Assembly (NCBI GenBank): GCA_963169875.1
Contig: CAUJEL010000012.1
Location: 1-32,950, forward strand
Origin: Candidatus Zhuqueibacterota bacterium
GTDB lineage: Bacteria; Zhuqueibacterota; Zhuqueibacteria; Residuimicrobiales; Residuimicrobiaceae
DNA length: 32,950 nucleotides
Direction: 5' to 3'
A program made the position numbers and the translations under genes. The notes under the pieces are model-generated. The model saw only the letters and a program-made list of their open reading frames with translations, was not told where the DNA came from and ran no database searches. Of the stretch, positions 1,033 to 30,105 are shown piece after piece (position 1 is the stretch's first letter; every line of letters begins with the position of its first letter).

Positions 1033-3192
1033 GTGAGGTGTCAAAAATATTTTCTACTCCAGTTGCTTTTTCCGATCATCCTCTTTGCACAAATGACGGG
1101 ATGGCAGGAGAATAAAGAGATTTTTATGCCCAGCGGAGTCGAGATCGACTCCCTCAATATCGATTTCCAGGTCCTGCACTGGAATGGCGATAACTGGCCC
1201 GATATTCTCATCAACGAAAACGGCCGCCTGAGCTATTTCCAGAATATCGATCCTCAGGATTATATTTTCGAAAAGTGCAATCTCACACTTCCAGCCTTAC
1301 CACCACATTCCTTTCCAGATTGGCTCAACGAAAGTAATAACTTTTGTGCCGCGGACATGGATTATGACGGCGATTGGGACCTGGTCGCCGACAGCCTGCT
1401 ATTCTACCGAAATACCGGCTCCAATGCCCATCCCGCCTGGCAGCTAGAGCCCGCTTTCTTTGAAAACCGGATAGACTCGGTCGATCTGGAATACACCCGG
1501 GGGATCTGCAATGATGATTTCACATTTTTCGATTTTGAGGGAGATGGCGATCTCGATCTCCTCGCCAGGCATCGCGATATATCCGGGGCGACCGAGGGGT
1601 ATACTTATCTCTTCCTGAACGACCCGCTACGTCAGCGCTGGATTTTTAGGGAACGTTTTGCATGGCTGTTTTTCCGTGGCAGCGAGAACATCCATCTGGC
1701 TGATCTGGACAGCGATGGTGATCCCGATCTCTTCACTTCATGGAAAGCTTACGGAGGTATGTCCATGAATGATATATTCTGGTTCAATCTATATCCCAAC
1801 CTGGGTACCACCATCCAGCCCGTCTATGAGAATCAGCCCACCCTGAGCGGCAGCTTCATACGTCCCCATTCCAGGTATATAGTCAGCGATCAGTTTTATG
1901 ACATCGATAGCGATGGTGATCTGGATTACATCTGGCTCACCCCCAGCCGTCATCTGGATATTCGTTTCAATGAAACCCTGAGCAGCCAGGCTTTCGTCTT
2001 CACGGATAAAAATATCCGGCTCGGCCGCCTCTGCGTCACGGCCAACGCCCAACCGGCGCTCTTCCGGGAGCCGGATCGCCCATATCCTTCCCTTATCGTC
2101 AGTGAAAACTATGACGACTGGTACTGGGCTTCGGATATGTTTATGCGTCTTTATGGGCGCCTGCTCGAATTGGGCACCTGGGGTGCCTTCAACCGGGACT
2201 TTGCAACCATGGACAATTTCTGGGCCCTGAACTGGAACGAGTTTAATATCCGGAGTGATCAAATGAAGACAGTCTGCTATGACCACTGCATCACTTTCCC
2301 GGAGAATCCAGCCGGCAGCATCGCGATCTCTTATCGATACTATTATAATTGGGAGCACAAGGGCTACAAGGTCCAGTTCTTTCGCCGTAAGAGCGTCGGG
2401 GATTCTGCTTTCTGGGAGATGGATTCCACTCTGGCCGCCTTTTCCTTGTCACCCAGGCTCTATAACCGGCCAGTGCTGTCGGACATAGATCTTGATGTTT
2501 CGCCGGAGTTGTTCATCCGGGAGGACACAGTCTATACCTGCTTTAAAAATTTTGGCACACTAGAGGCAACGGACTGGCAGCCCTCGCCGGACGGCCTCGA
2601 GGGAATCGCGGAGCGTAGTCATTTCCACCTCGCCATGGCGGACCTGGACAGCGATGGCGATCCCGATATGATCTTCGGCGATGCAGATGGCTCGCTACAC
2701 TACTACCGCAATCTGCGGCCGGTCTCCCCTAATTGGCAGCATATGCCCGAGGTTTTCGCGGGATTGGATGTGGGCGAGGATGCGGCCCCAGCCATCGGTG
2801 ATGTAGACCAGGACGGCGATATGGATTTGATCGTGGGCAACCGCATCGGTCAGCTCTACAGCTTTCAGCTGCCGGAATATCTACAGGTGGAGAGGAAAAA
2901 GGCGAAGCTGCCAGCGGAATTTCGCCTGCTGCCGGCCTTTCCCAATCCTTTCAACAACACAACGACAATTGCCATTGAAACCAGTAAGAAGGAATGGCTG
3001 GAGATTTCTGTCTTAAACTCCCGCGGACAGCTCGTTAAAACCCTTCTAAAGAGCGAGATTCCTCCCGGCTTGCACAAGATAGCATGGGATGGTCAAGGCA
3101 GTTCCGGGCAGGTAGCTTCCTCAGGACTCTATCTCATCTACGCTCGCAGCCGGACGATGACGCACCAAATTAAAGCCATTCTGTTGAAATGA
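1033..3192 (+). CDS. Secreted FG-GAP/VCBS-repeat protein with T9SS C-terminal sorting domain
   Basis: 719 residues from a GTG start chosen because AGGAGA lies 9 bases upstream and the frame is closed just before it. Residues 1-19 form a signal peptide (KYFLLQLLFPIILFAQ). The body holds at least five calcium-loop repeats of the form D-x-D-x-D-G-D-x-D, near residues 108, 166, 223, 297 and in the 530-600 region, each followed by a strand ending in Y-x-N; this is the FG-GAP/VCBS beta-propeller pattern. The last about 80 residues are a T9SS tail: FPNPFNN, a G-Q-L-V-K strand, W-D-G-x-x-x-x-G, S-G-L-Y, ending ILLK. By family the tail is recognised by the type IX machinery and removed on export. The propeller probably binds a surface ligand, but no substrate can be inferred. 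Confidence 0.85.
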   Translation: MRCQKYFLLQLLFPIILFAQMTGWQENKEIFMPSGVEIDSLNIDFQVLHWNGDNWPDILINENGRLSYFQNIDPQDYIFEKCNLTLPALPPHSFPDWLNESNNFCAADMDYDGDWDLVADSLLFYRNTGSNAHPAWQLEPAFFENRIDSVDLEYTRGICNDDFTFFDFEGDGDLDLLARHRDISGATEGYTYLFLNDPLRQRWIFRERFAWLFFRGSENIHLADLDSDGDPDLFTSWKAYGGMSMNDIFWFNLYPNLGTTIQPVYENQPTLSGSFIRPHSRYIVSDQFYDIDSDGDLDYIWLTPSRHLDIRFNETLSSQAFVFTDKNIRLGRLCVTANAQPALFREPDRPYPSLIVSENYDDWYWASDMFMRLYGRLLELGTWGAFNRDFATMDNFWALNWNEFNIRSDQMKTVCYDHCITFPENPAGSIAISYRYYYNWEHKGYKVQFFRRKSVGDSAFWEMDSTLAAFSLSPRLYNRPVLSDIDLDVSPELFIREDTVYTCFKNFGTLEATDWQPSPDGLEGIAERSHFHLAMADLDSDGDPDMIFGDADGSLHYYRNLRPVSPNWQHMPEVFAGLDVGEDAAPAIGDVDQDGDMDLIVGNRIGQLYSFQLPEYLQVERKKAKLPAEFRLLPAFPNPFNNTTTIAIETSKKEWLEISVLNSRGQLVKTLLKSEIPPGLHKIAWDGQGSSGQVASSGLYLIYARSRTMTHQIKAILLK

Positions 3193-14066: not shown

Positions 14067-14467
14067 GAATCGTTTTAGATACAAATGTCCTAATCTCGGG
14101 GATATTTTTTCATGGACCCTCTTATCGAATCTTGCAAGCCTGGAAACAGAAAAAAATACAATTTGTAATTACACCGGAGATTTATGCGGAATATAGTCGT
14201 GTCGCAGAAGTGATCTCAACGAAATATCCAGGTATTGATATTGCTGAAATTCTAAATCTCATCGCAATTTATTCCGAAATTGTTCAATCATTTACTTTAT
14301 CAGAACCTGTTTGTGAAGACCCGGACGACGACAAATTTATTGCATGTGCGATTTCAAATGAGGTAAGATATATTGTAAGCGGCGATAAGCACTTGCTCAA
14401 AATATCAGGATACCATGGAATACGAGTGATCAAGCCACAAGAATTTTGCACCGAATTTCTGAATTAA
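14063..14467 (+). CDS. PIN-domain toxin (putative ribonuclease)
   Basis: 134 residues, close to the usual length of the PIN toxin-component family. The acidic metal-binding residues of the PIN fold are visible: Asp6 in I-V-L-D-T-N-V-L-I-S-G, Glu39/Glu43 in P-E-I-Y-A-E-Y, a D-P-D-D-D-K-F segment at 86-92, and Asp108 in V-S-G-D-K-H-L-L. By family it is a Mg/Mn-dependent RNase that cleaves RNA when free of its antitoxin. The start overlaps the antitoxin stop (ATGA). No defect is visible, so the pair could be functional. An attC-like half-site begins directly after the stop codon. Confidence 0.87.
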   Translation: MRIVLDTNVLISGIFFHGPSYRILQAWKQKKIQFVITPEIYAEYSRVAEVISTKYPGIDIAEILNLIAIYSEIVQSFTLSEPVCEDPDDDKFIACAISNEVRYIVSGDKHLLKISGYHGIRVIKPQEFCTEFLN

Positions 14468-14500
14468 GTGCCAACAATGGCGCGCACCTGACCTTCGCTG
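14468..14500 (+). other. attC-like half-site G after the toxin gene
   Basis: GTGCCAACAATGGCGCGCAC and the following bases start right after the PIN stop codon. The sequence resembles the left half of an attC site and is similar along its length to half-site D (5107-5137). No convincing right half follows before the esterase gene. The rest of 14501-14678 holds only a small hairpin and the esterase leader. Confidence 0.35.
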
Positions 14501-14587
14501 CCGATCGCTCAAGCAACGAATATTGAATGTGAATATATTGGGAGCCCCTAAAGTTGGTTCGATGCGGCTCGGCGGGTGGCCCCTGTC

Positions 14588-14616
14588 GTTCCCGAGACAC
14601 TTACGCGTCTCAGGAC
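14588..14616. repeat. Small hairpin sharing its left arm with the one at 16358
   Basis: GTTCCCGAGAC pairs imperfectly with GTCTCAGGAC across a short loop. The left arm is identical in 11 of 11 bases to that of the hairpin after the DJ-1 gene (GTTCCCGAGAC at 16357). It may belong to a dispersed repeat family in this genome. It is not followed by a T-run, so it is not a typical terminator. Confidence 0.4.
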
Positions 14617-14678
14617 TTGATAATTCGCGAGTACAGCAGATCACGCCACTATTCATTCGAACAACTGGAGAAGATGAC

Positions 14679-15647
14679 ATGAGAAAAATCTCGTATCATT
14701 CGACTAAGCGAGCATTCGCGCGGGCAAGCCATTCTCGTTCGGCAGCCGCGGTTTTTACATTGGTCGCCGCGCTTGCATCTCAAATTCTGGCGCAGAACGA
14801 CCGCATGACACGCATCGAAACGCCTTCGCAGCCCGATGCGATCGAAATCGGGACCGGTCCGCTGCCTGGTGCGACGAACCCGGAGGCCTGGCATATGCAG
14901 TACGGCAGTCAGTTCGCACGAAACGTTACTGTGGCAACGCTGACGCCCTTTCTTCCGGATCCCGCCAAAGCAAGCGGTGCCGCTGTTGTCGTCGCACCCG
15001 GCGGTGGTTTCCTCACCTTGTCTATGGAAAATGAAGGCTGGAACGTCGCCCGCGCATTGGCGGAAAAAGGTGTCGCCGCGTTTGTTCTCAAATACCGCCT
15101 GAACCAGACACCGGCGGAAATGCCGGCGTTCGAAAAATCCATGCGGGATATGTTTTCTTCCGCGGCGCGGCCGACGCGCCCCGACCCGGAAAAAGCCATG
15201 GCCGGTCTTGCACCGCAGATCGCCGACGCCCGCGCGGCGTTCGCGCTTATCCGGCAACGTTCCGCGGAGTGGCATGTCGACCCGGACCGGATCGGCATGG
15301 TCGGCTTTTCCGCCGGCGCTATGCTGACCATGTCGACCGCGCTTGCAGGCGAGGATGCGAAGCCCGCCTTCATCGGCAACATCTACGGTCCTCTCGCGAC
15401 GGTCACGGTGCCGGCCGATGCGCCGCCTCTGTTTATCGCCTTGGCTGCGGACGATCCCTTCTTCGCGAACAGCGGCTACGGGCTCATCGACAGCTGGAAA
15501 GCCGCCAAACGCCCCGTTGAATTCCATCTTTATGAACAAGGCGGCCACGGCTTCGGGATGTACCCAAAGGAAACGACGAGCACCGGTTGGTTCGACGCCT
15601 TTGTGCGCTGGCTCGGAATGCACGGTATGTTGAAACCGAAAGGATAA
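14679..15647 (+). CDS. Secreted alpha/beta hydrolase (BD-FAE-like esterase)
   Basis: 322 residues from ATG 14679 (CTGGAG about 9 bases upstream); an upstream GTG in the same frame would only add leader sequence. Residues 1-39 form a signal peptide with a long basic n-region (A-V-F-T-L-V-A-A-L-A-S-Q-I-L-A-Q). The catalytic set is visible: oxyanion-region A-P-G-G-G at 106-110, nucleophile Ser211 in G-F-S-A-G, acid in A-A-D-D-P at 256-260, and His290 in G-G-H-G-F-G. This matches the carbohydrate-esterase/dienelactone-like hydrolases that remove acyl groups from plant polysaccharides outside the cytoplasm; the substrate is inferred. The gene is much richer in GC than the AT-rich toxin-antitoxin pair before it, suggesting a different origin. 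Confidence 0.85.
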   Translation: MRKISYHSTKRAFARASHSRSAAAVFTLVAALASQILAQNDRMTRIETPSQPDAIEIGTGPLPGATNPEAWHMQYGSQFARNVTVATLTPFLPDPAKASGAAVVVAPGGGFLTLSMENEGWNVARALAEKGVAAFVLKYRLNQTPAEMPAFEKSMRDMFSSAARPTRPDPEKAMAGLAPQIADARAAFALIRQRSAEWHVDPDRIGMVGFSAGAMLTMSTALAGEDAKPAFIGNIYGPLATVTVPADAPPLFIALAADDPFFANSGYGLIDSWKAAKRPVEFHLYEQGGHGFGMYPKETTSTGWFDAFVRWLGMHGMLKPKG

Positions 15648-15700
15648 TAAAGCCGCAACAGAGTGTTACGTTGTTTAAACCTGCGAAGAGAGGAAAAAAA

Positions 15701-16348
15701 TTGAGCAAGATTGCATATCTTTATGTTTTTGATACGATGGCAGATTGGGAACCAAGTTTTGTTATAGCAGAGCTTCATTCAGGACGGTATTTCAAGGATA
15801 AAACGTTGAAATATGATGTGAAGACCGTTAGTTTAACGCATGAGCCAATTACGACAATGGGTGGTGTGAAAATACTCCCGGATCTGACTATTCAGCAATT
15901 GATGGCTCATGAGGCTGGTGTATTGATCTTACCCGGAGGCGATACCTGGCTCGAACCGCTCCATGCTCCTATTTTTGACTGCGTGAGCGAATTTTTGCAT
16001 GCGCACATTCCTGTTGCTGCGATTTGTGGGGCAACGTTCGGGTTAGCAGCACATGGGTTTCTGAACAATCGTCAACACACCAGCAATGATCGTGACTATC
16101 TCAAAGCAATCTGTCCAGCTTATGTAGGAGAATCGTTCTATCTCCACCAACCAGCAGTTTTTGACGGGGATCTGATTACTGCATCAGGGGTTGCACCGCT
16201 TGATTTTGCCTATACGATCTTGGACAAGCTTGAGGTCTTCCTCCCGGCGACCCTTGAGGCATGGTATAAATTATACCAGACGCACGAAGCCAGGTATTTT
16301 TTTGCTCTGATGGCATCTTTACCACAGGTTCCACAAGAGAAACGGTAA
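15701..16348 (+). CDS. DJ-1/PfpI family protein (type 1 glutamine amidotransferase-like)
   Basis: 215 residues from a TTG at 15701, chosen because AGAGAGG lies about 8 bases upstream and the Rossmann-like strand K-I-A-Y-L-Y-V-F begins at once. The nucleophile elbow A-A-I-C-G-A-T places the reactive Cys at residue 109; Glu17 in D-W-E-P is the usual partner acid, and a L-I-L-P-G-G-D loop lies at 75-81. By family such proteins are proteases, deglycases or chaperone-like stress proteins; the exact activity is uncertain. It resembles the YoaZ-like subgroup. A good stem-loop lies 10 bases after its stop, between it and the convergent vWA gene. Confidence 0.83.
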   Translation: MSKIAYLYVFDTMADWEPSFVIAELHSGRYFKDKTLKYDVKTVSLTHEPITTMGGVKILPDLTIQQLMAHEAGVLILPGGDTWLEPLHAPIFDCVSEFLHAHIPVAAICGATFGLAAHGFLNNRQHTSNDRDYLKAICPAYVGESFYLHQPAVFDGDLITASGVAPLDFAYTILDKLEVFLPATLEAWYKLYQTHEARYFFALMASLPQVPQEKR

Positions 16349-16419: not shown

Positions 16420-18897
16420 TTATTTCAACAGCAACAGCTTCAGCGTCCGGTAATACCCCGGACCTTGCAGCACCGCCACATAGACGCCGCTGCCGGCCGC
16501 TGCGCCGGCCCCATCCGCACCATCCCATCTGATCTCCGCCATTCCGCGGCCCTGACCATCGATGCGGAATTCGCGAATTTTTTGTCCCAGCATATTATAG
16601 ATGACGAGTGTCCATGCCGAGTTTTCGCTGTACTCCGGTAAGGCCAGGCGCAGGGTCACCACACTGTTGAATGGATTCGGATAAGCCTTCATATCAAAGA
16701 GCAGGGCATCATCGTTTTCTACCGGGGCCTCAACGCCGGTTGACGGCGTCTCGTTGTCCCCGCCGCCGGCCTCATTGCTGTTTTTATCATTACCCTGCGC
16801 GATGTTGAGCGGATCATAGCCATAGTTCTCATCCGGCCGCTGCACAATAAAAGACGTATAGGGTGTGACGATGCGCTGCTTCAGACTGGTGTCCATGATC
16901 TCCATGATGGTGGCATTGGTCTGCCGTTCCAGCAGCAGTTCATGGATGCGGTTGCCGTGCCACGCCAGCGCCAGCTTTTCATCGCCCGGAATCACATCGC
17001 CATCAGTGATGGTGAATTGATCGCTGAATTTCTCCAGGCGCGTCTTGCCCAGCACCGTGATCTCCAGCGGCAGCGAACCCTGGAAGCGCCCGATTTGCAT
17101 GATGGGAAAATGCAGCGGATAATAACCCTGATTGAGCGCGATGACATACTTGCCAAACGCATAGCCGCTGGCAAAACGGGTCTGCACTTCGATTTCCTGG
17201 TAATGGGTGATGTGCTCATAAAAGAGCGCCGAGAGAATATTTTTTAACGAGTGATAACGCAGAAAAAAGAGATTGCCACCCGTCTGATTGCACATGAAGC
17301 CGTAAAAACTCTGCAGCTGCGCCACGTATTGATTATCCCGCGAACTGTACACCAGATTGGATTGATTTTCCAGATCGACCACGTGGATTGTGGTGCCTTT
17401 GGGCAGCATGGCGATGATCTGGGCCGCCAATCCCTCCCGGCTCGTATCAGCCTGGTAATCGGGCAGGGATATTTCATCCGTATTGCTGAAAAGCATCACA
17501 TCCACGGGTTTGCTCTTGTATTTTAGAAATCCGGCCGCTGCAGTGACCAGCGCCTGAAAATTGCTGTAGGAGGGAAAAGAACGCTTCAACACATTTTGGA
17601 ACAGGGTATCCAGGTTCTTTTCCGTGCACGCCACAAAATCAGCGGCGCCCCAGACCAGATCGTCAAATGCGACCACAATATTCACAGAGTCCTGCGCGCT
17701 CATGGCCTGCTGCATCGTCTCCTTGAGCAACATGAGCACCAGTTCGCCATCCAGTCCCCTGGTATTGTAGCGGTTGAAATCGACCAGGATGAGATAATTA
17801 CGCGGCGTTCTCACCTCGTCCTGCTGCGGCGGATAAACCGCGAGCTGGTAATAGGCATCACCATTTTTTGTGTACGTGCTGAAGTAATGCTTGTCCACGA
17901 TGGGAGACGGATAAATCAGTTCAACGAACATATCATAATCAAGTTGAATGACATAATCCCAGCTATTGGTAACCGCATTATAGGTCTCATTTTCAATATC
18001 GGCACCCAACAGATCCGGCTGATGGCCCTCCATGAAATGTAACTGCAGGGTACGGGCGCCCGGACTCGACCGCGAGGTCAATTGCGTGATGGGCAACCAG
18101 ACGCGCAGGGTTTCGTTGGTGGGCCGCGCCGGCAGCAGGTACTCCAGCTTGAACGTGCGTTTGATGTTGCGCATGACGGGATAGATGCGCACATTATAGT
18201 TGACCTGGCCTTCGCGGTCGGCAAAGGAGCGCGTCAGCAGGGCCGGATTGCGCACCGGACTGCTGACCTCGCTGAAGAGCAGTTCCGCCGTCCACTTGTC
18301 CAGCAGCGTGGCGTTAAGCAGCGAATCCTCCTGCCACAGCCAGAAACCCGTGATGCTCGCCTGATCGGGCAGGCTGAATTCCCACATGAATTCCAGTTCG
18401 TCGTAATTTTTGAAATACCAGCTGTTGAAATCGTAGGAAACGGTCAATTCGAGCGTCATCTCGAGAAAGGCACCGCGCGGCACGATGGTCAAATCCGCCG
18501 TATCGACGCGCACGTTATAATCCTTGACGTTGGGGTAATTGGCCTCGTAGACGCTGAAATTCGCCGCAAAAACAGTGCTGGTCAGAAGCAGCATCAGCAG
18601 CACCGGTATAGTCATAACAGGATAATTATGGCCGATATGACCATGCGTCATGCGCGGCCACAGCCTCATAAATAATGTGCGCACGGCGCGCCAACAGGCA
18701 GGTGCCGCAGAATCGCCCGAAGGAAGCATCGGCGCCCCCATGGCCGTTCCAGGGGTTTGCCGGGGGGCAGGTGCGATAAAACTGTCCGGAGGCGGCAGCG
18801 GTGGCGCCCATAAAGCCGTTTTAGGGCCACGCCGGGAGGCAGCTGCAAGACGCCCAACCAACACAGCCGGCAGAAGTTTATTCAGGTATGTTTTCAT
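16420..18897 (-). CDS. VIT / degenerate vWA surface protein with T9SS tail
   Basis: 825 residues. The ATG at 18897 has GAGGA about 7 bases upstream and starts 12 bases after the preceding gene's stop, suggesting coupling. After the first 15 residues comes an Ala/Pro-rich stretch encoded by a tandem repeat, and only then a signal-peptide core (I-P-V-L-L-M-L-L-L-T-S-T-V-F-A) before A-N-F-S. In-frame ATGs at 18651 and 18615 are alternative starts without good ribosome sites. A VIT-like domain follows, then a vWA-like domain opening Y-L-I-L-V-D-F-N-R-Y, where the metal-site D-x-S-x-S is lost. The helix T-P-Y-T-S-F-I-V typical of VIT-vWA proteins is kept. The C-terminus is a T9SS tail (A-Y-P-N-P-F-N-S ... 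LLLLK). By family these are surface or extracellular scaffolds; without the metal site, ligand binding must differ. Confidence 0.8.
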   Translation of the reverse strand: MKTYLNKLLPAVLVGRLAAASRRGPKTALWAPPLPPPDSFIAPAPRQTPGTAMGAPMLPSGDSAAPACWRAVRTLFMRLWPRMTHGHIGHNYPVMTIPVLLMLLLTSTVFAANFSVYEANYPNVKDYNVRVDTADLTIVPRGAFLEMTLELTVSYDFNSWYFKNYDELEFMWEFSLPDQASITGFWLWQEDSLLNATLLDKWTAELLFSEVSSPVRNPALLTRSFADREGQVNYNVRIYPVMRNIKRTFKLEYLLPARPTNETLRVWLPITQLTSRSSPGARTLQLHFMEGHQPDLLGADIENETYNAVTNSWDYVIQLDYDMFVELIYPSPIVDKHYFSTYTKNGDAYYQLAVYPPQQDEVRTPRNYLILVDFNRYNTRGLDGELVLMLLKETMQQAMSAQDSVNIVVAFDDLVWGAADFVACTEKNLDTLFQNVLKRSFPSYSNFQALVTAAAGFLKYKSKPVDVMLFSNTDEISLPDYQADTSREGLAAQIIAMLPKGTTIHVVDLENQSNLVYSSRDNQYVAQLQSFYGFMCNQTGGNLFFLRYHSLKNILSALFYEHITHYQEIEVQTRFASGYAFGKYVIALNQGYYPLHFPIMQIGRFQGSLPLEITVLGKTRLEKFSDQFTITDGDVIPGDEKLALAWHGNRIHELLLERQTNATIMEIMDTSLKQRIVTPYTSFIVQRPDENYGYDPLNIAQGNDKNSNEAGGGDNETPSTGVEAPVENDDALLFDMKAYPNPFNSVVTLRLALPEYSENSAWTLVIYNMLGQKIREFRIDGQGRGMAEIRWDGADGAGAAAGSGVYVAVLQGPGYYRTLKLLLLK
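18690..18855. repeat. Imperfect tandem repeat (69 + 72 bp + partial) inside the vWA gene's 5' end
   Basis: Units start at 18690 (GCCAACAGGCAGGTG), 18759 (GCCGGGGGGCAGGTG) and 18831 (GCCGGGAGGCAGCTG). Each also contains a GGCGCCC core and a GCCGTT motif. Unit lengths are multiples of three, so the frame of the enclosing minus-strand gene stays open. It encodes two Ala/Pro-rich units (T-A-L-W-A-P-P-L-P and T-A-M-G-A-P-M-L-P). The repeat lies between the first 15 codons and the hydrophobic core of the signal peptide. Confidence 0.65.
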
Positions 18898-18909
18898 GGC
18901 CGTCCTCGC

Positions 18910-21039
18910 TTATCTGAGCAACGATATTTTTGCATTTTTTCTGAACGACCCGGCTTGCACCTGTACCAGATAGGTGCCCGAGCCAGCCGGACGGCCGGCT
19001 TGATCGAGGCCGTCCCAGACCACGCGCAGACTGGATCGCGCAGACGCGTGCATCTGATATTCATAGACGATCTGGCCCATATAATTGACGACGCGGATCA
19101 GGACGGGCCGGGTATCGTCAAAATCGGGCAAGGTGATGCTGAGCGTTGTGGATGCGTTGAAAGGGTTGGGGAAGGCCATCAGATTGTGCTCCTTGGGCGC
19201 TTCGGCTGGCGGAGGTTGCTGTACTTCCACAGCGCTCTCCGCGCCCTCCTCCAGCCGCATAAAAGCCAACAATCCCTCTGCACCGGGGACGATGAATCCG
19301 CTGTAGGGCGTCAGCAGGCGCCGGCTGACGCTGGTGTTTTCAATATAGGTGATGGTTTCATAACTTTGCGGCTCCAGCAAGCGATTTTGAATGTAGCGAT
19401 CGTACCAGTAGGTGACCACGGCTTCCCAGCCCGGATCGGCGCTTTGACGGTCGATGGCCACGGTCCGGGCGAAGAGGGAACCCTGGAAAGAACCATAAAA
19501 ATGCACATCAAAGGGCGCCGCTCCGTCATACACGCCCATCTCGTAATAGGGCATGGTGACGGGGAAATTGACTCTGCCTTGATTCAACCGAAAACGGGAG
19601 TGGGTCAATCCGCCCTGTGGTGCCGGGTCGATTTCCACGGTATTGACCGTGGGTGCGATGGCGTCGAGCATGATATCAAGGAACTCGTAGGATACCGCCT
19701 CGCGCAACCTGACAAACGTGCCCCAGCTCGCTCTGGCCAGATTCTCATATAAATAATCATTGCCGTAGTAAACCTGCGCGTTGATGGTCTGTCTGAACTG
19801 ATAATTCCGGTCCGCACTGATGACGCGAAAGACCAGGGGCCTGGCCGCCCCGCCGTGGGTTTGCTGTATAATTTCCATGGCCGTGGCGAGCGGATCGCAA
19901 TGGCGGTTGGCGTCGCTGAGCAGCCAGATTTCGCCGCCGCGTTGCGCCTCATTAAAAAAATCCACCGCCTGGCGCAGCAGCTGCGGCAGGGTATTGAGGA
20001 TCGGAGGCGATTGATTTTGCGGTCCAATGAAGAGTTGATCCAGCCGGGGAGCTGTATAAGGCGCAAACGCCGCATCGGCCTGAATGGGACTGAAGCTCGA
20101 ATAAATCAGAGAAATCGAATCCGTATCAATGAGGGATAAGCGGACAGCCTCCTTGAATGTCTTCACCAGGTCCAAGTAATTGGCTTGCTGGTTGGTGAGG
20201 TCAATGGCCAGCATGATATTCCGCGGCTGTTGCCGGGTTTTGTCCACCGGTGGCAGCACGGCTAATTGATAAAAAGTGGCGTCCTCTTTCAGACACGTGC
20301 GCAAATAGGAACGCGACGCGGATTCCGGCGCCAGGCCCAGGACTGTTTTGCTGGTTTGCGTGTTGGTGCGCCAGAAATCGCCCGATTTTTCCCAATTGTA
20401 GCCCACACCGGCCAGGGTGATTGGCTGCACGGAAGGATTATCGTGATCCCAAACCTGCAGCATGGGTGTGGAACTTTGGACATACGTTGAAAATTCCTGC
20501 AACGGCACGATGATGCGACGCGTGTTGTAATAGGGCAGGCAGGGAGAGAGGTAACGGATTTTGATCGTCGGTGCCTGGGTGACTGTGACCGGTGAAAAAT
20601 TCATCTGAAATCGCTTCTGCACCTCGCCGTTCCAGTTGCGATACCAGCGGTGCCGCAGCAGCAGGCGCGGTTTTGAGGCGGGCTGCTGCTGGTAGCGCCG
20701 CTCCGCGCTGGACAAATCAACGATCTCGGCATTCTGAAACGCCGTGGCGCCATAAGCCTTGATCCAGCAATCGGTGATGACCGCGCCTTCGATGAGATCG
20801 AAATCCCAGGTGATCTCATAGGTGCCGGGCGGTATCTCGCTATAGGACCAGGGCGCCAGCGCGAGCTGGAAGGTGATGGTCGTCTCATAGAACAGGCCAA
20901 AAGCCTCAACTTCGCAGGAAAGCTGTTTCAAATCGAAGTTGCTCCAGCCGTAGCCGTTTTCGCTGAGATTGCGAGCGTAAAAGGAAGCATGCGCAGTGGA
21001 AAAGCAGGCGAGCATGAAAACAAGTAACCAGCGTTTCAT
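18910..21039 (-). CDS. VIT-like / degenerate vWA surface protein with T9SS tail
   Basis: 709 residues; AGGAGG lies 7 bases before the ATG. Residues 1-18 are a signal peptide (MKRWLLVFMLACFSTAHA). A VIT-like domain spans about 25-170, with L-L-L-R-H-R-W-Y-R-N-W and K-I-R-Y-L-S-P. A vWA-like domain starts near residue 270 with N-I-M-L-A-I-D-L-T-N-Q, so the D-x-S-x-S metal motif is replaced. A later L-L-S-D-A-N keeps only part of the third metal loop. The segment R-R-L-L-T-P-Y-S-G-F-I-V is the usual VIT-vWA closing helix. The tail (A-F-P-N-P-F-N-A-S ... SLLR) marks T9SS export. It is the upstream partner of the 825-residue protein and shares its whole domain order, suggesting an old tandem duplication and probably a shared surface complex. 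Confidence 0.82.
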   Translation of the reverse strand: MKRWLLVFMLACFSTAHASFYARNLSENGYGWSNFDLKQLSCEVEAFGLFYETTITFQLALAPWSYSEIPPGTYEITWDFDLIEGAVITDCWIKAYGATAFQNAEIVDLSSAERRYQQQPASKPRLLLRHRWYRNWNGEVQKRFQMNFSPVTVTQAPTIKIRYLSPCLPYYNTRRIIVPLQEFSTYVQSSTPMLQVWDHDNPSVQPITLAGVGYNWEKSGDFWRTNTQTSKTVLGLAPESASRSYLRTCLKEDATFYQLAVLPPVDKTRQQPRNIMLAIDLTNQQANYLDLVKTFKEAVRLSLIDTDSISLIYSSFSPIQADAAFAPYTAPRLDQLFIGPQNQSPPILNTLPQLLRQAVDFFNEAQRGGEIWLLSDANRHCDPLATAMEIIQQTHGGAARPLVFRVISADRNYQFRQTINAQVYYGNDYLYENLARASWGTFVRLREAVSYEFLDIMLDAIAPTVNTVEIDPAPQGGLTHSRFRLNQGRVNFPVTMPYYEMGVYDGAAPFDVHFYGSFQGSLFARTVAIDRQSADPGWEAVVTYWYDRYIQNRLLEPQSYETITYIENTSVSRRLLTPYSGFIVPGAEGLLAFMRLEEGAESAVEVQQPPPAEAPKEHNLMAFPNPFNASTTLSITLPDFDDTRPVLIRVVNYMGQIVYEYQMHASARSSLRVVWDGLDQAGRPAGSGTYLVQVQAGSFRKNAKISLLR

Positions 21040-26681: not shown

Positions 26682-27809
26682 TCAGAAGGAATAATTTGCT
26701 TTGCCGGCCTGGGTGCGCAGGGCTTTGCTCATCACCTTGTCCAGCGTGTTTTCGGGCTGACTAGCCGCCCGCCTTTTTTGTTCGGCGACGATATAATCCG
26801 CTCGCTCTTGCCGCAGCTCATCGATGCGTTTCTGAATTTTTTCGCGTTCCGTCCGTTTCGTCTCCAGATACTTTTTCTGTTCGTCCAGAGACAGCGATTT
26901 CATCTCCGCCGGCAGGTCTTCTCTTTTCACCTCATCCAGTTCGATTTCACCTTCGTTGACAGCATCGACCAGGTCCCAACTGGTGTTCTTGTAGATGGCC
27001 TGGGATTTGGTGATGGAGCGCTGTACGATGGAAGCGGGCGACGCCTTGGCCGCGTTCAAATCCTGGCGTTCCTGATTGGCCCTTCCCGCAGCGCCGCTCT
27101 GCCCAAAACCGATATAGGTTGTGTTCAGCGCCGCACCCAAATCGACCAGTTCCTTGTCAAAGGGCGTCGGGATTTCCGCAACCTGCTGATTCTGATCGAT
27201 ATTGAAATAAGCGCCATCGGCGAGATCGGCGCCATCCTTCCAGTTGGTTTCGACACCCTCGTTGTAATTGCCGCAAAAAATGGCATTAACCAGAATGCCC
27301 TTGCTGATGGCGCGTTTGCAAGTGATCCGGTAATCGACGCGTCCCTGGGTGAACTCTTCATTGCCCGCAATGAAAATGGCGCGATAATCATTTTTACCGA
27401 TGCCCCACGCGAGTTCATCGACGGCTTTGCCGATCACGGTGCCGCAGTATTCATCGCCGCCGCTGGTGCTGAGATTGAACAGGGCATCGGAGACCTTGTC
27501 CAGGTCGGTGGTCAACGGCGTGAGCTGTTTGACATATCCGGTTCGTTCTCCCAGCGCCGGCGTGCCATAGTGGTAGAGCGCGACCTGAATGTCCGGGCGC
27601 TGCCCATCGACCGAGGCGGTGATGAATTCATTGACGATTTTCCACAGCTGACTCTTGGCCTGTTCGATGAGTCCGTCCATGGAATTGCTGGTATCCAGCA
27701 ACAAGGCCAGTTGCACCACGGGTTTCTCCGCTGCAGCAGAAGGCATCCCTGGTACGGCCCAGAGGCTCCCGGACAGCAATACAACGAGTAAAAGAATCCA
27801 TTTATTCAT
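26682..27809 (-). CDS. Exported vWA-domain protein with C-terminal coiled coil
   Basis: 375 residues; AAAGGA lies about 7 bases before the ATG. Residues 1-27 are a signal peptide (M-N-K-W-I-L-L-L-V-V-L-L-S-G-S-L-W-A). The vWA domain starts at once, with an intact metal site D39-T-S41-N-S43, and continues to about 215. Then come G-Q-S-G-A-A near 248, Y-K-N-T-S-W-D-L-V-D-A near 285, and a charged coiled coil at about 305-355. No membrane anchor or T9SS tail is visible, so it is probably periplasmic. It is the second gene of an operon: the VIT-vWA gene ends 22 bases upstream. The two share a C-terminal module (see findings), suggesting they work together. The function of this family is not established. 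Confidence 0.82.
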   Translation of the reverse strand: MNKWILLLVVLLSGSLWAVPGMPSAAAEKPVVQLALLLDTSNSMDGLIEQAKSQLWKIVNEFITASVDGQRPDIQVALYHYGTPALGERTGYVKQLTPLTTDLDKVSDALFNLSTSGGDEYCGTVIGKAVDELAWGIGKNDYRAIFIAGNEEFTQGRVDYRITCKRAISKGILVNAIFCGNYNEGVETNWKDGADLADGAYFNIDQNQQVAEIPTPFDKELVDLGAALNTTYIGFGQSGAAGRANQERQDLNAAKASPASIVQRSITKSQAIYKNTSWDLVDAVNEGEIELDEVKREDLPAEMKSLSLDEQKKYLETKRTEREKIQKRIDELRQERADYIVAEQKRRAASQPENTLDKVMSKALRTQAGKANYSF

Positions 27810-27831: not shown

Positions 27832-30105
27832 CTAGTCTGTGATTTCATATACTTTGCCGGCCAGAAGAACCTGCATGTTTCTGCCGGCGGAGAGCCACTG
27901 CGGCGCATTCTTGTCCAGATCGAGAAGACGATAATATTCTTCGGAGGCGAATTTGATCTGCACCGGTTTTTCAGCTTGAGCAGCCTGTATCCTGGCATCG
28001 ATCCAGATATTATTATTTTGATAGAAGGTTTGATTGGCGATACTCTTCTGCAGGCCGGATTGCAGCGCTTCCCGCACTTTGACCGCAGCGGGTGCGGCGG
28101 CGCCGCTCTGACCGCGTTCAAAATAGGCGTTGGCTTGCACCTCGGCCTTGTCCTGGTTGGCATTTTTCAACATGGAAAGGGACTGGGCCGCGCCGACCGC
28201 CATGTCGCCGCTCTTTTCACGATGCACCTGATCGTACATGCGCCCGGTCTCGCGCTCCAGGAGTGGATCGTTGAAGACGATGGTGCGGCGCGGGGAAGGA
28301 ATGTTGCGCACGGTTTCGTCTTCGATGATAAGATACGCGGTGTATGGCGTGACGATGCCATAGCGCCGCGCCAGGATCGTCACTTCCTCTTTTAACTCAT
28401 CATTTTCGCCATGGAGGCGGATTTGATCCAGAAGAAAACCGATGCGCCGCGAAGCCCAGATGCGGGGAATGAAATCATAAGCCACGGCTTCCTCCGGAAA
28501 TTGCACCCGGAAAAGCCAATTTTCGCTGCGGCCATTGACCTTGCCGGTGAGTGATATCTCGGCCCTGCCGGAACCGCTGTACTGCCCCAGCAGCAGCAAT
28601 TGTTCTCCCTTGAAAATATCCGGCAACTGCGACGGTGTCATCCTGCTCAGGCGCACAGGACCAGTCACTGTTATTTCGGGCCTGGCCAGCACCGGCATGT
28701 TGATCTTGTCAAAAAAATGGGCGATTTTTGCGGTGAGATCTTCTTCCGGAAGGATATATTGCCCGGCTGCGCGCGTCTCCGCGGTGAGGCGATCCAACAG
28801 ATGGGTATTGAGGTCGCTGCCAACGCCGAGACAAAAGATGCGCACTTGATCATCGCGCAGGCGCCTGGTCACTTGCGCCAGTATGGCATTTTCACCGGTT
28901 TCGCCCACCGTGGGTTTGCCATCGGTGATGAGGATGACCATATACGGGCGCTGTTCGCTTTCCCCATTTCTCAAAGGCCGCAGCGCCAGGTCAAGAGCTT
29001 CGGCGAGGGCGGTGCCGCCAATGGGTTTGAGGTCGTCGACAAAGTCACCGGCCTGGTCGAGAGAGCGCGCACTCACCGGACGCAGTTCGCCGAAAAGCGC
29101 TTCCGCTTCGGTGGAAAAACGCACGATTTCAAAACGGTCCTGGGTGTTCATATGGCGCAGGCAGTAGCGCAGCGCCTCCCTGGCCTGATTCATTTTTTCC
29201 TTTTCTGCCATGGATCCCGAGGTGTCCAGCACAAAGACCAGGTCTTTCGCCAGGACCTCTTCGCTGGCGACGTCCGCGGCCGGGGAGAGCATGAGCATAA
29301 AGTGGCCTTCCCGGGCCTGATCGGGATCGCGAAAAGCGAGAAGATGGGCGCCGATCGATTGAGGCCCCTGGCTGGCGATGAAGAGCTGGAAATCCGTGTC
29401 CGGCTTGATCTCCCGGTCCTCGTAGCCGATCACGGCGCGATGGCGCGACGGCCGGCGAATCTCGATTTCATGGCTCGGCGAATATATGTCCTGCAGCGGT
29501 TGGCTGGATTCAACTTCTATCTTAAGGGCGACGCTTTTGAGCGGCGTGGCCGAGAATTTTTCCGTGTTCAGGGGATAGAGATACTCCATCAACCCATTGT
29601 CCTGCTTGAGGATTTGTGTGTAACGCAGCTTGATCTGTTTTTCAGCGCGCGGCGGGATCGGGAAGATGCGCACCCGGTAGAGGCCCTGGTTCGTGTATTC
29701 AAGCAGGGCGGGATCGCGCAGGGAACGAACGATGTCTTCATAAATACGACGCGCTTTCCCGGCATCGAGCAGTTCAGCTTCCACCATCTTGCCGTTGATA
29801 TCCATGGAAAACTGGTCGATTTCTCCGCCCCGGGGGATGGGGAACAGATAAATGCCCTCCAGCTGTGCCGGCTGGGGATTATAAAAAACCTGGTCGATTT
29901 CCGTGACAGCCACCTGATCTTTGATTTGTACCGAGACGTGGTGGTAACGGACCTCCAGGGGCGCAAAGGCATAGTGCGGCGGCCTGTGATGCGGCGGGTG
30001 CGGCGGACGCGGAATGATGATCATACCGTCGGCTAAAACCGATCCGGTCATGAAAAGTAACACCATGACAATGGAATTGACGACACCCGTAACAAAATGG
30101 CGCAT
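27832..30105 (-). CDS. VIT and vWA domain protein (exported)
   Basis: 757 residues; AAAGGG lies about 7 bases before the ATG. Residues 1-25 are a signal peptide, followed by a His/Pro-rich linker (PRPPHPPHHRPPH). The VIT domain spans about 50-175 with F-Y-N-P-Q-P-A-Q-L-E-G-I-Y-L-F-P-I-P. The vWA domain spans about 287-470 with an intact metal site D294-T-S296-G-S298 and the third loop I-T-D-G-K-P-T. Then a sandwich domain and the closing helix Y-G-I-V-T-P-Y-T-A-Y-L-I. The last about 120 residues contain G-Q-S-G-A-A and W-I-D-A, also seen in the next gene. It lacks a T9SS tail, unlike the two VIT-vWA proteins at 16.4-21 kb. By family it resembles inter-alpha-trypsin-inhibitor heavy-chain-like bacterial proteins, probably binding a protein partner in the envelope. 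Confidence 0.88.
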   Translation of the reverse strand: MRHFVTGVVNSIVMVLLFMTGSVLADGMIIIPRPPHPPHHRPPHYAFAPLEVRYHHVSVQIKDQVAVTEIDQVFYNPQPAQLEGIYLFPIPRGGEIDQFSMDINGKMVEAELLDAGKARRIYEDIVRSLRDPALLEYTNQGLYRVRIFPIPPRAEKQIKLRYTQILKQDNGLMEYLYPLNTEKFSATPLKSVALKIEVESSQPLQDIYSPSHEIEIRRPSRHRAVIGYEDREIKPDTDFQLFIASQGPQSIGAHLLAFRDPDQAREGHFMLMLSPAADVASEEVLAKDLVFVLDTSGSMAEKEKMNQAREALRYCLRHMNTQDRFEIVRFSTEAEALFGELRPVSARSLDQAGDFVDDLKPIGGTALAEALDLALRPLRNGESEQRPYMVILITDGKPTVGETGENAILAQVTRRLRDDQVRIFCLGVGSDLNTHLLDRLTAETRAAGQYILPEEDLTAKIAHFFDKINMPVLARPEITVTGPVRLSRMTPSQLPDIFKGEQLLLLGQYSGSGRAEISLTGKVNGRSENWLFRVQFPEEAVAYDFIPRIWASRRIGFLLDQIRLHGENDELKEEVTILARRYGIVTPYTAYLIIEDETVRNIPSPRRTIVFNDPLLERETGRMYDQVHREKSGDMAVGAAQSLSMLKNANQDKAEVQANAYFERGQSGAAAPAAVKVREALQSGLQKSIANQTFYQNNNIWIDARIQAAQAEKPVQIKFASEEYYRLLDLDKNAPQWLSAGRNMQVLLAGKVYEITD

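Follow-up and report, generated by a model that had tools for sequence, protein, structure and literature searches.

The window, by which we mean the whole stretch of 32,950 nucleotides analysed here (from contig CAUJEL010000012.1 of a Candidatus Zhuqueibacterota bacterium), holds two neighbouring genes, termed A and B, both on the minus strand and separated by 12 bp when counted from the annotated ATG of A. Each encodes a VIT domain, a von Willebrand type A (vWA) domain, a hybrid-type domain and a tail typical of the type IX secretion system (T9SS), and in each the metal site (MIDAS) of the vWA domain departs from its usual form (Table 1). A canonical VIT-vWA protein (‘protein C’), encoded about 7 kb from the pair, serves as a comparison.

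Table 1. Positions of the features of genes A and B and of protein C in the window
Feature	Positions	Strand	Remarks
Gene A (VIT, vWA and hybrid-type domains, T9SS tail; D-F-N-R-Y-N-T in place of the MIDAS)	16420..18897	-	possible internal start near 18615
A, T9SS type A sorting domain (YPNPFN ... LKLLLLK)	16423..16701	-	TIGR04183
A, hybrid-type sheet plus helices behind the vWA domain, with TPYTSFIV at the end	16831..17205	-	model
A, vWA domain	17206..17805	-	model residues 256-455
A, Asn at the loop-4 position of the MIDAS Asp	17482..17484	-	20/20 A-family members
A, former MIDAS loop 1 (DFNRYNT)	17761..17781	-	family D-[FY]-[NS]-x-x-N-[TS]; 91st percentile of 7-residue vWA windows
A, VIT-like domain	18091..18525	-	Pfam VIT 23.0-23.4 bits (cut-off 26.5); AlphaFold2 model
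Gene B (VIT, vWA and hybrid-type domains, T9SS tail; eroded MIDAS, D-L-T-N-Q)	18910..21039	-	immediately upstream of A
B, T9SS-type sorting domain (FPNPFN ... AKISLLR)	18913..19155	-	FlgD_ig; TIGR04183 just under cut-off
B, hybrid-type sheet plus helices behind the vWA domain, with TPYSGFIV at the end	19285..19653	-	model
B, vWA domain	19654..20226	-	model residues 253-443
B, former MIDAS loop 1 (DLTNQQA)	20182..20202	-	Asp invariant; conservation of the other residues is among the lowest in the B vWA
B, VIT-like domain	20503..20949	-	structure only, no Pfam match
Protein C: canonical VIT-vWA, MIDAS intact (DTSGS, T, TDG), without T9SS tail	27832..30105	-	outside the pair

Where translation of A starts is uncertain: the first 90 or so residues are not conserved, even in a sister species of the same genus (G001), and the core of its signal peptide (MTIPVLLMLLLTSTVFAA) begins only near 18615. 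Hydrophobic N-terminal stretches, judged by eye, are found in A (behind the unconserved leader), in B and in their homologues. The leader itself (18615..18897, minus strand) is rich in proline and alanine, differs in G001 and is absent in G002; a repeated or mobile origin was considered for it and ruled out, the leader DNA being single-copy in the genome.

Elsewhere in the window, another vWA protein, with the motif DTSNS (26682..27809, minus strand), comes directly after protein C, the two probably forming a two-gene unit of their own. Two plus-strand frames at 14463..16348 encode an esterase-like and a DJ-1/PfpI-like protein; they share about 110 bp, unless their starts, which are uncertain, lie elsewhere.

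Domain architecture and structural relatives

Structures of A and B were modelled with AlphaFold2 from alignments of 31 and 27 relatives, respectively (mean pLDDT 82 for A and 86 for B). In both models a VIT domain precedes a vWA domain; a hybrid-type sheet comes next, then two helices, and a disordered link joins these to the tail. The best whole-chain match of each is the human blood-matrix protein inter-alpha-inhibitor heavy chain 1 (ITIH1; Z 21.3 for A, across 508 residues, and Z 20.4 for B, across 489). The whole-chain rmsd is high (about 10-12 Å), which points to domains that agree but stand at different angles. The original prediction, made from the sequence alone, of a VIT layout and a vWA fold in both genes was thus borne out by the models, in which the domain in question does fold as vWA. 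Sequence searches (Pfam and NCBIfam) recognise a VIT domain only in A, and there weakly: the VIT match of A reaches 27.4 bits in a whole-genome scan, above the Pfam cut-off and above its value when searched singly, and B has neither a VIT nor a vWA match. A sequence profile of the A family together with its single-gene relatives (‘S’, described below) places ITIH4 and ITIH1 at the top, again weakly (E 0.02-0.06), and a search with single sequences yielded no convincing solved relative.

Behind the vWA domain of both proteins lie the hybrid-type domain and a TPYTAFL-like segment. This T-P-Y-x-x-F-I-V segment, which had been taken for a closing helix shared by the two genes, forms a short beta-strand (E572-576 in A and E561-565 in B) behind the two helices, and canonical VIT-vWA proteins have it as well (TPYTAYLI in protein C).

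ITIH1 (PDB 6fpy, 6fpz) shares with A and B the VIT / vWA / hybrid scaffold of about 500 residues and is likewise an extracellular binding protein; it differs in having a working MIDAS and no T9SS tail, in being attached to hyaluronan in animals, and in its sequence (about 12% identity). It self-associates in a MIDAS-dependent manner and binds vitronectin and fibronectin independently of the MIDAS (PMC7170535). The marine proteobacterial sortase target proteins of TIGR03788 have the same VIT-vWA layout but carry a sortase signal where A and B carry a T9SS tail; against the cut-off of 551.65 bits for that model, protein C scores 284.5 bits, A 21.6 bits, and B gives no match. Also among the strongest matches to the A and B models (Z about 16.5-18.5) are the vWA folds of TFIIH p34, Sec23/24, Rpn10 and archaeal ArnAB, which are cytosolic and lack both VIT domain and T9SS tail; the likeness in fold shows no common function. 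Several vWA modules of this type lack a working MIDAS and take part in protein-protein assemblies.

Distribution and pairing of the two genes

Across 82 genomes of the phylum, mostly drafts in many contigs, A was found in 21 copies distributed over 17 genomes, and a search for co-occurring pairs returned B immediately upstream of A, on the same strand, beside every one of the 21, fragmentary contigs included. Four genomes, the window's among them, carry two such B-A pairs each. The distance from the stop of B to the likely start of A is mostly 8-121 bp. The subtree of A closely resembles that of B in shape, with a correlation of pairwise distances of 0.94 (17 pairs), a value that species history alone would also make high. 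A related single-gene group, S, occurs in 10 genomes without an adjacent B. Among the contexts examined, no third gene is conserved beside the pair, save for an occasional canonical VIT-vWA gene.

Among 388 genomes searched, no full-length member was recovered outside the phylum; the matches there covered the VIT part only, with the exception of one short C-terminal match. Viral contigs held no relative of the pair, and a search of assembled genome contigs returned only two close relatives, both apparently from the same phylum. No literature was found that combines VIT-vWA, or KSB1, with T9SS, a result that says little about subscription journals; KSB1 is the candidate phylum in which class UBA2214 has been placed (PMC9386943) and to which the genome of the window probably belongs. 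A and B are described as a family of putative surface proteins that is small, specific to the phylum and uncharacterised, and not as a new kind of system.

Sorting tails and export

Both genes encode tails of the T9SS type, as had been predicted, with a PNPFN motif in each: the tail of A passes the TIGR04183 cut-off (26.1 versus 23 bits), and that of B falls 0.4 bits short of it (22.6) but passes FlgD_ig (29.2 versus 27). Nearly all of the complete A and B tails inspected carry a motif of the PNPFN type. The genome from which the window derives encodes PorU (887 bits) and SprA (863 bits, in a frame that includes neighbours), and a search of it with A gave 132 matches, nearly all to the tail alone. 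A and B are therefore putatively exported by the T9SS and attached outside the outer membrane.

That such tails are unusual for VIT-vWA proteins, as was initially suggested, fails within the phylum, where T9SS-tailed proteins with an intact MIDAS are common (G015, G029, G040, G042, G044, G046, G050, G052, G054, G061, G066 and G070), and the corresponding gene adjoins B-A or S in four of these genomes. None of 17 VIT-vWA proteins sampled outside the phylum carries a T9SS tail, and the tail is thus a habit of the phylum and not of the pair.

Three large frames that resemble parts of PorU (G000:C10:9042-13151, C178:26666-30748 and C18:321-5348; about 1630-1890 aa) are present besides the real PorU at C172, and are possibly C25-type peptidases.

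Fate of the metal site

The MIDAS was compared across an alignment of 64 VIT-vWA proteins (15 canonical, 20 A, 18 B, 8 S and 3 of a further degenerate subgroup, ‘X’), and was scored as intact when all five of its residues were present: the Asp and two Ser of DxSxS, the loop-2 Thr and the loop-4 Asp. All 15 canonical proteins retain the five residues, and none of the 49 others does (0/20 A, 0/18 B, 0/8 S, 0/3 X), although the first Asp persists in 48 of those 49.

The claim that D-x-S-x-S is replaced in both genes stands as far as the motifs go (DFNRY in A, DLTNQ in B), but the two losses are not equally secure. In A the loss is firm: an aromatic residue occupies the position of the second Ser in 12 of 20 members, the loop-4 Asp has become Asn throughout, and for the stretches of former loop 1 and loop 4, conservation relative to the rest of the vWA domain falls between the 91st and 93rd percentiles. 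In B the loss is probable. Residues 262-270 lie at the 2nd percentile of conservation within its vWA domain, and the loop-4 position is mixed across the 18 members (6 N, 5 D, 3 S, 3 T, 1 A); the window's own B, however, retains Asp at MIDAS positions 1 and 4 and Thr at position 3, which makes metal loss less certain there than in A. To judge from these residues, the B protein of the window may still bind metal weakly, and a metal-dependent self-association of the kind seen in ITIH1 would be open to the pair only if it does. It seems that A gained a new surface at the old metal face and that B let its own go; the two should not be read as equivalent genes.

In a tree built from 538 columns, with those of MIDAS loop 1 excluded, the canonical proteins (the tailed ones of the phylum, which share domain order, tail type and sometimes adjacency with A and B, among them) are separated from A, B, S and X by a branch with 100/100 support, and A and B form sister groups (97/92) inside the degenerate clade. 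The passage from intact to lost MIDAS takes one change on this tree, provided that the root lies among or beside the canonical proteins; this is reasonable, because the DxSxS-type motif is general, being intact in all 17 VIT-vWA proteins from other phyla that were read out. Since A, B, S and X make up one clade, a single ancestral loss suffices, and the parallel loss in two paralogues that the original prediction proposed is unsupported.

The X subgroup, like S, has a degenerate MIDAS, and carries in addition an insert inside its vWA domain. Its members (L131:1025-3883, L132:666-3452, L136:533-2593 and L137:296-3083) are about 930-950 aa long where complete; the insert is some 200 residues in length, shows recurring motifs (CWKFPGI and GLLVVSG among them) and has no match in Pfam.

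A possible cation-independent surface complex

The pair of metal-site-poor, T9SS-tailed VIT-vWA proteins does exist, and its two genes are strongly conserved together. A new, metal-free binding role for it, as first put forward, is plausible, though ITIH1 is already a known case of metal-independent binding by a VIT-vWA protein (PMC7170535). The reading we prefer, to which we give an even chance of being correct, is that A and B together make up a surface complex that is specific to the phylum, secreted through the T9SS and based on an ITIH1-like scaffold, and that this complex binds its partner without a cation switch. Once outside the cell, B and A would bind each other as a heterodimer or a larger assembly, and this heteromer would hold a partner without the cation switch of its MIDAS-bearing relatives. 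The former metal face of A, now a conserved polar surface (D-[FY]-N-x-x-N-T together with the invariant Asn), would be the likely contact or ligand face, and B, the former metal face of which is unconstrained, is more likely to be a scaffold or anchor partner. The evidence that bears on a B-A heteromer, which would resemble Sec23/24 in joining paralogous vWA proteins, consists of the adjacency of the genes and their matching trees, which can also arise from a common function without physical contact. A more specific version, in which the pair forms a T9SS-delivered, ITIH-like heteromeric adhesin whose cation-dependent adhesion site decayed in one subunit and in the other was converted, once, to a conserved contact face independent of cations (D-[FY]-N-x-x-N-T ... 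N), is offered only tentatively and is the less probable of the two.

The strongest rival, though an unlikely one in our estimate, is a mixed assembly in which the degenerate proteins are partners of the MIDAS-bearing, tailed VIT-vWA proteins, with the metal-bearing subunit contacting an acidic residue on the metal-free one, so that loss of the MIDAS marks the ligand side. Contiguous genes in the order C-B-A in G015, C-S in G061 and S-C in G044 and G050 (C here being a canonical gene) speak for such an assembly, as does the dimerisation of ITIH1 via its MIDAS, for which the authors of that work suggest that the MIDAS of one chain might be contacted by an acidic side chain from the other (PMC7170535); most B-A pairs, however, have no adjacent canonical gene, and that of the window is both distant and tail-less. 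We give a similarly low probability to the proposal that the vWA domain is a structural spacer only, the VIT and hybrid domains doing the work and A and B acting separately. The VIT domain is indeed the best conserved domain of A (mean JSD 0.58, versus 0.53 for vWA), and ITIH1 does not need its vWA domain to bind vitronectin and fibronectin (PMC7170535), but the VIT domain of B is no better conserved than its vWA domain (0.44 versus 0.48), the former MIDAS loops of A belong to the best conserved tenth of the vWA domain and include an invariant Asn that would not be expected of a pure spacer, and the strict pairing speaks against separate action. More improbable still is a MIDAS that has been rewritten and binds a cation via other residues, at least in B: the near-universal first Asp and the D, T and D of the window's B at positions 1, 3 and loop 4 agree with it, while the universal loop-4 Asn and frequent aromatic substitution in A, and the high variability of loop 1 in B, do not.

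The phylum offers a clean natural series, from T9SS-tailed VIT-vWA proteins with intact MIDAS through the single degenerate S proteins to the obligate B-A pair, in which to ask how an integrin-like, metal-switched adhesion domain turns metal-free. The analysis also provides a fold and a likely class of function for proteins that would otherwise be left as ‘T9SS sorting domain protein’, B among them with no Pfam match to VIT or vWA.

The S and canonical VIT-vWA genes of G044 and G050 (L082 and L084) lie within a longer run of tail-bearing genes, which also holds a gene like that of the FG-GAP protein at 1033..3192 of the window.
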